From positions 25,611-89,610 of the forward strand of contig JACPQL010000023.1 of NCBI GenBank assembly GCA_016190445.1: a stretch of DNA of 64,000 nucleotides, read 5' to 3'. The position numbers and the translations under genes were made by a program. The stretch is from Chloroflexota bacterium (GTDB taxonomy: Bacteria > Chloroflexota > Dehalococcoidia > Lucifugimonadales > JACPQL01). Below the pieces are notes generated by a model that did not search any database, was not told the DNA's origin, and saw only the letters and a list, made by a program, of their open reading frames with translations. The stretch's first letter is position 1; every line of letters begins with the position of its first letter. Below are positions 34,436-38,116 of the stretch, one piece after another.

Positions 34436-36142
34436 CTACTTCGCACCAGCCACGGAAAGGACCTTTGACACCTCGGGCCGCGTGAGTTCCGCAGGGAGGA
34501 TGCCGCCCCTGGCCAGTATCTCCCTCACCTGGGTGCCGCTAAGGGAGAACCGCGACTCCTCAGGGTGAGGACAGGTCTTCTCGGTGGCCATGGCGCCGCA
34601 GCGGCGGCAATAAAAGGCATTCTCGTAAAAGACCGGGGTCACCCCCAGGTCAGCGGGCGGGATGCTGGAGAGAAGGGCATGGGCATCGTATGGGCCATAG
34701 TAACGGCCCACCCCAGCGTGGTCCCGCCCGACAATGAAATGGGTGCAGCCGTAGTTCTTCCGCACCAGGGCATGGAACACCGCCTCCCGCGGGCCGGCAT
34801 AGCGCATGAAGGCGGGAAAGACCGCCAGCAGTGCCCTTTGTGCGGGATAGTAGGCCCCTAGCAGCGCCTCGTAGCACCTCATGCGGACCTCTGCGGGGAT
34901 GTCGTCGGACTTGGTCTCGCCGACCAGAGGGTGCAGAAGGAGGCCGTCCACCATCTCCATGGCGCATTTCTGGATGTACTCGTGGGCGCGGTGCACCGGG
35001 TTACGGGTCTGGAACCCCACCATGGTGCGCCATCCCCGCCGGGCGATCTCCTCCCGTACCTGCGCCGGGCTGCTGGGGTACCGGCCCACCGCCCCGTCGG
35101 TGCTCCCATTGGATGGCAGCATGGCTATGCTACCGCCCAGCAGTACATCACCCTGGGAATAGAGGTTCGCCACCCCAGGATGGGCCTTATCAGTTGTGCG
35201 GTACACCAGTTGGGCCTCCCGCTCCTTCTCGTAGCCGTACTTCTCCGCCAGCTCCATCAACCCCACCACATGGCCATCCGTGTCCCGCAGTGCCACCTCT
35301 CCCTGGGGAGGAAGAGCACTGGCCGCGTTGTCAGAGACGGCCAGGGTCACAGGCAGCGGCCACAGCCGTCCGTCGGCCAGGCGCATCTGCTCCACCACAG
35401 CCCGGTAGTCCTCTTGCTGGAGGAACCCCTGTAGCGGGCTGAAGGCGCCGTTGGCGATGAGGCGGGCATCCGAGAGCTGGCGCGGCGACAGGGTGACCGA
35501 CTGCAACTCGGAGGCCCGCTCAAGGAGGGCCCGGGCCGCATCCGCGCCCAGCTCCCGCTGCACCAGAGCGCCCCCGTGAGAGCCCGCTACGGTCCGGGTC
35601 CCTGAGGCCGAGCTTCCCCGCTCCAGGTAGCCCAGCTCCTCCAGCTTGGCCAGGACCTTCCCCACACTCTCCTCCAACGTCTCCTGGTCGGTGTGCACCA
35701 CCACCTCAGGGCGCTCCGGCGCCTCGTAGGGGTCAGAGACACCGGTGAAGTTGGGGATCTCCCCTCTCAGGGCCTTGGCGTACAGGCCCTTCACATCCCG
35801 GCGCAGCAGCACCTCCAGGGGGCAGTGGACGTACACCTCCACGAAGTCGCCGATCTGCCGCCGCACCTGCTCCCGTATCTCCCGGTAGGGAGATATGGCG
35901 GCGCCGATGGCGAAGGCACCGTTGCGCGTCAAAAGGTGACAGACAAACCCGATGCGCAGGATGTTGGTGTCCCTGTCCTCTTTGCTGAACCCCAGCCCTC
36001 TGCTGAGGTTGGTGCGGACCACATCGCCGTCCAGGACCTCCACCGACTTCCCCCGCAGCCTCAGCTCCTGCGCCAGGGCATTGGCGATGGTGGACTTTCC
36101 CGCTCCTGAAAGACCCGTAAGCCAGATGGTTGCCGTCCGCAT
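34436..36142 (-). CDS. Bifunctional APS kinase / ATP sulfurylase (CysC-Sat fusion)
   Basis: A 568-residue fusion for sulfate activation. The N-terminal 185 residues are an APS kinase (WLTGLSGAGKSTIANALA, LDGDVVRTNLSRGLGFS, RRDVKGLYAKALRGEI). The C-terminal 370 residues are ATP sulfurylase, with QTRNPVHRAHEY, the GRDHAGVG loop and a Cys-rich zinc-like site (CRRCGAMATEKTCPH). It makes APS from sulfate and ATP and may phosphorylate it to PAPS. The ATG at 36142 has an AGAGGAGAGAGGA ribosome site; the track's start at 36190 overlaps cysH. It is transcribed after cysH, 44 bases downstream of its stop. The ORF order and fusion resemble Aquifex- and Thiobacillus-type enzymes. Confidence 0.93.
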   Translation of the reverse strand: MRTATIWLTGLSGAGKSTIANALAQELRLRGKSVEVLDGDVVRTNLSRGLGFSKEDRDTNILRIGFVCHLLTRNGAFAIGAAISPYREIREQVRRQIGDFVEVYVHCPLEVLLRRDVKGLYAKALRGEIPNFTGVSDPYEAPERPEVVVHTDQETLEESVGKVLAKLEELGYLERGSSASGTRTVAGSHGGALVQRELGADAARALLERASELQSVTLSPRQLSDARLIANGAFSPLQGFLQQEDYRAVVEQMRLADGRLWPLPVTLAVSDNAASALPPQGEVALRDTDGHVVGLMELAEKYGYEKEREAQLVYRTTDKAHPGVANLYSQGDVLLGGSIAMLPSNGSTDGAVGRYPSSPAQVREEIARRGWRTMVGFQTRNPVHRAHEYIQKCAMEMVDGLLLHPLVGETKSDDIPAEVRMRCYEALLGAYYPAQRALLAVFPAFMRYAGPREAVFHALVRKNYGCTHFIVGRDHAGVGRYYGPYDAHALLSSIPPADLGVTPVFYENAFYCRRCGAMATEKTCPHPEESRFSLSGTQVREILARGGILPAELTRPEVSKVLSVAGAK

Positions 36143-36186
36143 TCCTCTCTCCTCTGTGTTTTGCAAACTCTCGGTTACTGTCCTAA

Positions 36187-36918
36187 TCACCCGGGGTTCT
36201 TCTCAGCAAGAGGCACGTGCAGGCCACACTCCGTCTTGGAGAACCCAGACCACCGCCCTGCCCTGGGGTCCTCGCCCGCCCTCACCGGCCTGGTGCAGTG
36301 GGTGCAGCCGATGCTCTTGTACCCACGGTCCACCAGCGGGTTGTAGGGGACGTTGTGCTCCCGGACGTACTCCCATACCTGCTCCTCAGTCCAGGCAGCC
36401 AGGGGGTTCACCTTCACCACGCCGAAGCTCTCGTCCCACTGCACCACCGGCGTATCCGCACGGGTGGAGGCCTGGTCGCGCCGGAGACCGGAGATCCACG
36501 CCCGGGCCCCCTCCAGGGCACGCTGGTTGGGCTCCACCTTGCGAAGCTGGCAGCACAGGTCTGGGTCGCGGCTCCACAGCTCCTCGCCGAACTCCCGTGC
36601 CTGGGCCTCGGGACTCCAGCGTGACTCGTACGCCTCGACCTTGATACCGTACCTGCGCTCCACCTCGTCGCGAAGCTCGTAGGTCTCAGGAAAGAGGAAA
36701 CCGGTATCCAGATAGAAGACACGAACGTCCGGCCGGACTTGCGCCGCCATGTCCACCAGTGCCATGCCCGAGGCGCCCCCAAAGCTACACGCCAGCAGAA
36801 TGTCCGGGTGGAACTCCCCGAGGGCCCACCTCAAGACCTCCTGGGGTTGGCCACCCTCAAAATGGCGGGAGAGCGACCCCAGTTCCTCGGTGGTGAACCG
36901 CACTTGCCTGCTTGTCAC
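36187..36918 (-). CDS. cysH: Assimilatory adenylylsulfate (APS/PAPS) reductase
   Basis: A 243-residue enzyme reducing activated sulfate to sulfite. It has the PP-loop-like CSFGGASGMALVDM, the LDTGFLFPETYELRD segment, and iron-sulfur Cys pairs CCQLRKVEP and CTHC, with the C-terminal catalytic KTECGLH. The presence of both CC and CxxC motifs marks the 4Fe-4S type that normally uses APS. Start is GTG 36918 with GGAGGTG upstream; the track extends it further. It is the first gene of the operon with cysC-sat and the 38-residue ORF. No sulfite reductase gene is in the window. Confidence 0.93.
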   Translation of the reverse strand: MTSRQVRFTTEELGSLSRHFEGGQPQEVLRWALGEFHPDILLACSFGGASGMALVDMAAQVRPDVRVFYLDTGFLFPETYELRDEVERRYGIKVEAYESRWSPEAQAREFGEELWSRDPDLCCQLRKVEPNQRALEGARAWISGLRRDQASTRADTPVVQWDESFGVVKVNPLAAWTEEQVWEYVREHNVPYNPLVDRGYKSIGCTHCTRPVRAGEDPRAGRWSGFSKTECGLHVPLAEKNPG

Positions 36919-37127
36919 AGCCCACCTCCACGCGAAGTTATACTGGACACCTGGGCACAAAACACTGCGCCCCTCTTCCACTACTGGAGAGAGGGGCGCA
37001 TCCGTTACCGCTTATGTGTCTGGGCTACTGGTCGCTCACACGAGCCTTACCGGGAGCTGGCGCACCACATCCCTCCCCGTACTGGCGGTACAACAACAGG
37101 ACATGGCGCACATACTGGCTAACATTG
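36919..37127 (-). ncRNA. Structured 5' leader of the cysH operon, possible riboswitch
   Basis: The predicted transcript start near 37127 leaves a roughly 210-base untranslated leader ending in a terminator-like hairpin. Sulfur-assimilation operons are often controlled by leader RNAs (SAM riboswitches and others). I looked for SAM-I, SAM-II and cobalamin core motifs and did not find a convincing match. Small stems such as GTAC-CGCCA-GTAC and GCTC-GTGT-GAGC are visible. The identity of any ligand is unknown. Confidence 0.4.
36966..37000 (-). promoter_or_regulatory. Terminator-like hairpin in the cysH leader (candidate attenuator)
   Basis: On the minus strand TGCGCCCCTCT pairs perfectly with AGAGGGGCGCA, the stem continues through TCCA/TGGA, and GTGTTTT follows. 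It sits between the cysH promoter and its start codon, about 47 bases before the GTG, so full formation would stop transcription before cysH. Confidence 0.55.
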
Positions 37128-37133
37128 TGAAAA

Positions 37134-37162
37134 CTTATACCAGACTTCCGCGTCCTTGTCAA
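37134..37162 (-). promoter_or_regulatory. Strong promoter of the cysH operon
   Basis: On the minus strand a consensus TTGACA and TATAAG are spaced by exactly 17 bases. It is one of the best promoter matches in the window, lying just after the secF stop codon. Confidence 0.8.
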
Positions 37163-37165
37163 TAG

Positions 37166-38116
37166 CTACCCAGCGGGCGCGGGGCGCAGGCGCCGCCAGA
37201 ACCGCCCCAGGTCGTGGCTCTCCCACGAGACCAGGAGCGCGCTGGCGATGGCGATGGAGCTATAGGTTCCCGTTGCTATGCCGATGAGCAGCGACAGCAC
37301 CAGCACCAGTATGGAGGGCCCGCCAAAGAGGAGAAGCGCGACGACCACGAACAGCGTGGTCATGGCAGTGTTCAGAGACCGTCCAAGAGTCTCCAGGATG
37401 CTCACGTTTACAGTGGCTGGCAGGTCCTCCGCAACCTGGCGGGTAAGGTTCTCCCGAATGCGGTCAAAGACCACCACGGTGTCGTTGACGCTGTACCCCA
37501 CCACCGTCAGCACCCCGGTTATGAACATAGCGTTGACTTCAATGTTCATGAACCTTCCCAGAATTGAGAACAGCCCCAGCACCACCAGCACGTCGTGCAG
37601 CATGGCGATGACGGCGCACACCCCGTAGCGGAAGGGGTTGGGAAGGGACCGGAAGGCCCAGGCGATGTAGAGCAGAATGGCGATGGACGCCGCCACCACA
37701 GCAATGGTGGCATTGCGGACCGTCTCCCTGGCCACCAGCGGCGACACCGAGGCGAACTCGGCGGTCTCGATGGGTGCCAGATTCTGCTCCAGCGCCCCCT
37801 GGAGCCGCTCTCGCTCCCCAGGCTCCAGCACATTGCCCAGGGGGTCCAACCGCGCCTCCCGGAGGGTGCGCGTCTGAATGAAGTAGGAGGAGTCGCCCAA
37901 CCTCTGGACAATGGCCTCAGGGTAGCCCAGGGCCGCGACCTGGTCCCGCACCTGACCCTCGGAGACGGGCTGGGCGAACTCCACCGTTAGGCTGGAGCCC
38001 CCGGCGAACTCAATGCCCGCCCGCAGGCCAGGGGGGATGGCGAGAGAGACAAGGCCGGGGATGGTGACCAACAAAGAGAAAAGAAAAAGCCAGTACCGCT
38101 TGCGAACCAGGTTCAC
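37166..38116 (-). CDS. secF: Protein translocase subunit SecF
   Basis: A 316-residue membrane protein with six helices that works with SecD in proton-driven late steps of Sec export. Recognisable parts are the N-terminal helix, GIEFAGGSSLTVEF, the periplasmic domain, and TM4-TM6 with VVGYSVNDTVVVFDRIREN, the SecF signature. It starts two bases after secD. It is the last gene of a long minus-strand run from mogA. Confidence 0.97.
   Translation of the reverse strand: MNLVRKRYWLFLFSLLVTIPGLVSLAIPPGLRAGIEFAGGSSLTVEFAQPVSEGQVRDQVAALGYPEAIVQRLGDSSYFIQTRTLREARLDPLGNVLEPGERERLQGALEQNLAPIETAEFASVSPLVARETVRNATIAVVAASIAILLYIAWAFRSLPNPFRYGVCAVIAMLHDVLVVLGLFSILGRFMNIEVNAMFITGVLTVVGYSVNDTVVVFDRIRENLTRQVAEDLPATVNVSILETLGRSLNTAMTTLFVVVALLLFGGPSILVLVLSLLIGIATGTYSSIAIASALLVSWESHDLGRFWRRLRPAPAG

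Follow-up and report, generated by a model that had tools for sequence, protein, structure and literature searches.

A predicted ribosome-mediated cysteine attenuator upstream of cysH and other sulfur operons in an order of Dehalococcoidia

The cysH locus and its leader

The window, i.e., the whole 64,000-nucleotide stretch of DNA analysed, carries the cysH gene encoding a PAPS/APS reductase (36187..36918; Pfam PF01507, E 3e-56), which starts with GTG and lies, like all features of the locus described here, on the minus strand. It is followed by a gene coding for a fused APS kinase-ATP sulfurylase (cysC/sat, 34436..36190; Pfam PF01583 and PF01747), the GTG of which overlaps the cysH stop codon by 4 nt. 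A Shine-Dalgarno sequence, GGAGGT (36924..36929), is placed 5 nt before the cysH GTG. Upstream, secF is oriented in the same direction and ends at position 37166. Just past its stop codon, a promoter was identified with the -35 hexamer TTGACA (37157..37162) and the -10 hexamer TATAAG (37134..37139) separated by a 17-nt spacer, a layout that recurs in relatives. The presence of such a promoter had been proposed in the initial annotation of this DNA and was confirmed, and it was overlooked by a simple promoter scanner since that program accepts only T as the sixth base of the -10 hexamer.

The distance from the first ATG (37125) to the cysH GTG (36918) is 207 nt, in good agreement with the structured leader of about 210 bases annotated initially. 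The predicted fold of this leader contained two strong hairpins, with a folding energy of -87.6 kcal/mol compared with -72.7 kcal/mol for dinucleotide shuffles (z -3.35). The search of Rfam revealed no family at the gathering score in the window and none in the leader at E values up to 5; a riboswitch or T-box was rejected on the basis of this absent match. The initial annotation had noted the lack of recognisable SAM or B12 riboswitch cores.

The ATG opens a short reading frame of 29 codons encoding MLASMCAMSCCCTASTGRDVVRQLPVRLV (37036..37125), which was absent from the initial annotation and explains the rest of the leader. It contains four Cys codons, the first regulatory one being TGC (37108..37110) and the remaining three forming an uninterrupted TGT TGT TGT run (37090..37098). 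The ATG is located 8 nt after the -10 hexamer with no Shine-Dalgarno sequence before it, so the predicted start is probably that of a leaderless ORF.

In the folds, the Cys codons are enclosed by hairpin 1:2 (37060..37111), the putative anti-antiterminator. Its 3' part, region 2 (37060..37078, GGAGGGAUGUGGUGCGC), can pair instead with region 3, GCGCCCCUCUCUCC, the 5' arm of the downstream terminator hairpin 3:4 (36966..37000), and was assigned as the 5' arm of an antiterminator based on the folds and on the comparison of matched and permuted pairing described below. Hairpin 3:4 is GC-rich and comprises 15 pairs with one bulge, which substantiates the terminator-like stem noticed earlier at this place. 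The 66-nt segment holding it was more stable than all of 200 shuffled sequences (z -4.5, 0/200 equally stable). The U-tract that follows, GTGTTTTG (36958..36965), is weak, and a simple terminator scan reported no terminator here.

Constrained folds were computed with an assumed ribosome footprint placed on the Cys codons or on the stop codon. When the footprint covered any one of the four Cys codons and the transcript stopped short of the terminator 3' arm, the 2:3 antiterminator was formed, whereas with no ribosome or with the ribosome at the stop codon hairpin 1:2 was formed and the terminator was left free. The footprint on the Cys codons flipped both leaders of the source genome (the second one precedes a sulfite reductase gene and is described below) to the antiterminator in the partial transcript. 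Even with a stalled ribosome, the terminator was the preferred equilibrium structure of the full-length window leader, and the predicted switch must therefore be kinetic.

Cysteine-rich leaders and matched terminators upstream of cysH in related genomes

The nearest named relative of the window CysH, with 68% identity, was found in the MAG SAR202-VII-2. This MAG falls in the order of the window genome, with its leader peptides being carried by genome G007. The SAR202 lineage belongs to the class Dehalococcoidia of Chloroflexota, and the whole order is presumed here to lie within SAR202, judging from the name of this MAG and from the GTDB taxonomy.

Among 197 genomes of the order, 75 had a CysH match, and the regions upstream of cysH were read for 69 of them. 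An ORF with at least three Cys in seven residues was detected in 33 of these 69 leaders in the sense orientation and in none of the 69 in antisense, with 1.8 found in shuffled sequences. At the more stringent threshold of at least four Cys in seven residues, the numbers were 21 of 69 in sense, none in antisense and 0.1 in dinucleotide-shuffled sequences. Cys was the sole strongly enriched residue of the short leader ORFs; the mild rise of Leu presumably comes from a shifted reading of TGYTGY. About half of the examined leaders had no Cys cluster directly before cysH. Most leaders with a clear promoter had the start codon 6-11 nt after the -10 hexamer; in G006, G079, G102 and G043 this distance was 27-32 nt, and a Shine-Dalgarno-like stretch was present upstream of the start codon in at least some of them.

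The Cys codons of the leader ORFs were mainly TGT (95 TGT and 59 TGC), in contrast to the cysH genes of the same order (12 TGT and 99 TGC), and this preference may have its origin in the demands of RNA pairing or in the response to Cys-tRNA levels. Some of the CysH matches carried flags for in-frame stops, which appeared to be located at the natural C-terminus.

For the analysis of terminators, three leaders with weak evidence (G013, G405 and G123) had been excluded in advance, which left 35 Cys leaders, 34 of the order and one from G287 of another order. An intrinsic terminator was present between the Cys ORF and the gene in all 35; for G095, the hairpin picked by the script was weak and a larger stem visible in the sequence had been missed. 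The 40 nt following the last Cys codon were then paired with the 5' arm of the terminator of the same genome or with those of other genomes. The mean energy was -17.4 kcal/mol for the own arms and -14.8 kcal/mol for the arms of other genomes, and none of 20,000 permutations attained the value of the own arms. With one hand-chosen genome for each of 12 families, the respective values were -19.9 and -16.0 (3 of 20,000 permutations). When the control consisted of shuffling the segment after the Cys codons, p<=0.05 was obtained in 31% of leaders, with the window leader being borderline (p 0.065). This weaker effect is due to the G-richness of these segments, and the permutation between genomes is therefore the informative test.

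Comparison of the relatives' leaders thus revealed what was kept: Cys codons, promoter, and the complementarity of antiterminator and terminator, the latter two forming matched pairs. A conserved RNA core was not seen across relatives, and the pairing segments vary in sequence from leader to leader.

Cysteine leaders of other sulfur operons and their distribution

Some close relatives without a Cys ORF directly before cysH have such a leader before the first gene of the operon instead, encoding a TauE-like protein (L139, L140), a PiT-like permease (L141) or a sulfite reductase (L236, L237); the gene names given for L139, L140 and L141 rest on sequence likeness.

To extend the set, the promoter combined with a TGYTGYTGY pattern was scanned over the order, with the reversed pattern used as a control. 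Matches were obtained in 42 genomes, compared with a handful for the control. Thirty matches were read, and most of those with a proper short ORF and a terminator preceded sulfur genes, namely genes for sulfite reductase, YeeE-type Sulf_transp, TauE and Cons_hypoth698 (YeiH-like) proteins; several of the 30 looked like chance. One further match preceded a gene for a PBP_like_2 protein, a candidate sulfur gene.

A looser pattern gave a single match in the window's own genome, before a sulfite reductase gene outside the window (L249, G000:C24:30813-30871, minus strand). This second putative attenuator consists of TTGACA-N17-TATAGT, 8 nt, a GTG opening the ORF MIDTRVLSAQMCACCGATERGASGQVRAAS, and then GAGCGCCCCGAGGAGAAGAGCCAAGGGGCGCUUCUUUUU. 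The segment GAGGGGCGC after the Cys codons pairs with GCGCCCC. The layout is that of the cysH leader and the sequence is different.

A set of 70 sulfite reductase leaders of the order was chosen by the gene and not by the leader. Cys clusters were present in 26 of the 70 in sense and in 3 in antisense, and the script found a strong terminator in 20 of these 26. Here too the matched pairing exceeded the permuted one (15 of 10,000 permutations).

Outside the order, Cys leaders before cysH were essentially absent: in other orders of the class, clusters before cysH were found in 2 of 65 regions in sense and 6 of 65 in antisense. The sole convincing case was L095 of G287, a genome of another order, with the peptide AVTCSCCCMPTQG and a matched terminator before cysH, which may result from transfer or from a wider ancestry of the device. 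The promoter-plus-TGY pattern matched in about 20 of 271 genomes of other orders of the class, but the matched sequences, taken alone, did not show the layout of a Cys leader. Regions upstream of cysH from Nitrospira, Acidobacteria and others gave 2 matches in 70; both fell inside the apparent reading frame of an upstream gene and were rejected as chance hits.

Proposed cysteine attenuation and alternative explanations

The data make it very probable that the window leader is a ribosome-mediated transcription attenuator of the trp/his type, which would adjust the expression of cysH and cysC/sat to cysteine. Each feature of a leader-peptide attenuator that can be looked for in sequence was found. 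In the leader ORF, codons for Cys, the end product, stand in a run, and the enrichment in relatives is Cys-specific; an intrinsic terminator, with a weak U-tract in the window, lies between the ORF and the gene; the computed antiterminator excludes the terminator and is freed by a ribosome on the Cys codons; and the genes downstream, cysH and cysC/sat, make cysteine, with sulfite reductase and transporters in this position elsewhere. Sensing is most likely performed by the ribosome during translation of the Cys-rich peptide and not by a metabolite-binding RNA. The transcription start, ORF translation and the sign and magnitude of the response are predicted parts of this model.

The model places the transcription start at the leader-peptide ATG or immediately upstream of it; translation of MLASMCAMSCCCT by a ribosome would then begin. 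When Cys-tRNA is ample, the ribosome would pass region 2 and reach the stop codon, the antiterminator would not be formed, and hairpin 3:4 would fold and end transcription before cysH. Under a shortage of Cys-tRNA, the ribosome would pause on the Cys codons and cover region 1, so that the free region 2 could pair with the emerging terminator 5' arm, pre-empting the terminator and allowing transcription of the operon. In an untranslated leader, both 1:2 and 3:4 would form, resulting in termination.

The trp, his, leu and ilv attenuators and that of ilvB1 of M. tuberculosis (PMC13236596) are ribosome-mediated transcription attenuators. The cysH leader shares with the trp/his type the ORF with end-product codons, the alternative 1:2, 2:3 and 3:4 hairpins and the intrinsic terminator before biosynthetic genes; it differs in the predicted sensing of cysteine, the probably leaderless ORF, the Chloroflexota host and the occurrence upstream of several sulfur operons, in some cases as a tandem pair. 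A survey from 2010 started from leader-peptide systems known in Proteobacteria and Actinobacteria and extended them to Firmicutes (PMC2965389). For mycobacteria, a prediction from 2005 described Cys leader peptides that lack terminators (PMC1262725), and later work demonstrated attenuation of mycobacterial operons by polycysteine leaderless ORFs (Canestrari et al. 2020, as cited in PMC9031893 and PMC13236596). In the literature searched, which covered few subscription papers, there was no prior report of Cys leader peptides in SAR202 or Chloroflexota.

The mycobacterial ORFs resemble the one described here in being short, Cys-run-containing and located before sulfur or cysteine operons; they are leaderless, which is probable for the ORF here. 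They suggest the strongest alternative, translation attenuation, in which pausing on the Cys codons would expose the cysH ribosome-binding site rather than cause antitermination. Such an effect of leaderless Cys-rich ORFs is described for M. smegmatis in PMC9031893 and cited as translation attenuation in PMC13236596, and in the fold without a ribosome the end of the window leader near the cysH Shine-Dalgarno sequence was partly paired. The second Cys-rich ORFs of L236, L229 and L225 described below, which have no obvious terminator of their own, also fit this explanation. However, the mycobacterial ORFs are reported to lack terminators (PMC1262725), whereas the window leader and all of the 35 cysH-type leaders tested contain one, and it is the terminator arm that covaries with, and is complementary to, the segment after the Cys codons. 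Translation attenuation is thus considered improbable.

A new metabolite-binding riboswitch is less probable still. It is favoured by the length and stability of the leader and by its terminator-like hairpin upstream of a sulfur gene. The initial annotation had left room for a new sulfur-responsive RNA, and what is retained of this suggestion is an attenuating leader, probably responsive to sulfur, that falls outside the known riboswitch classes. The binding of a metabolite by the RNA is unsupported: relatives share in-frame Cys codons and terminator/antiterminator complementarity while the paired segments differ in sequence, and Rfam gave no match. Like sulfur riboswitches and T-boxes, the leader is predicted to control sulfur genes by premature termination; unlike them, it probably senses through a translated peptide and not through an aptamer or tRNA-binding RNA. 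That the hairpin is an ordinary terminator of the upstream secDF genes accompanied by a chance short ORF is hardly credible in spite of the same orientation and proximity of secF, as a near-consensus promoter separates secF from the hairpin, the Cys clusters found upstream of cysH in many families are confined to the sense orientation, and the same device precedes sulfite reductase elsewhere in the genome.

With regard to the order as a whole, we somewhat favour the view that in these SAR202 relatives sulfur assimilation is governed by a regulon in which cysteine attenuators, for the most part leaderless and changing independently of each other, precede cysH, sulfite reductase and YeeE/TauE/PiT-like transporters. 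Some members of the order would have them in tandem, and the attenuators would replace a protein regulator or act beside it. The novelty lies in the lineage, in the coupling of transcription termination to a start that is probably leaderless, and in the regulon-wide use. Cysteine-sensing leader peptides have been known mainly from mycobacteria, with terminators reported missing, and the terminating type is now proposed in a largely uncultured lineage of Chloroflexota, where it recurs upstream of genes for several steps in the uptake and reduction of sulfur. This suggests that ribosome-based sensing can constitute a regulon. The Cys leaders predict which genes respond to cysteine in these organisms and provide a signature by which sulfur-related genes without known function can be recognised in sequence.

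Several leaders showed additional features. In SAR202-VII-2 (L139:700-1130, QEVV01000009.1), two apparently complete attenuators, each with a Cys ORF and its own terminator, were arranged in series before a TauE-like gene and cysH. In L236, L229 and L225, a further short ORF rich in Cys, such as ACFCTCRCTCSEQGCCACSSS, lies between the first terminator and the gene; it may act as a second, translational stage or encode a genuine small protein. A Cys leader with a terminator was also found before a gene for a 181-aa protein without a Pfam match (L220, G134) and before a 38-aa ORF (L222, G138), both of which are candidate sulfur-related genes.
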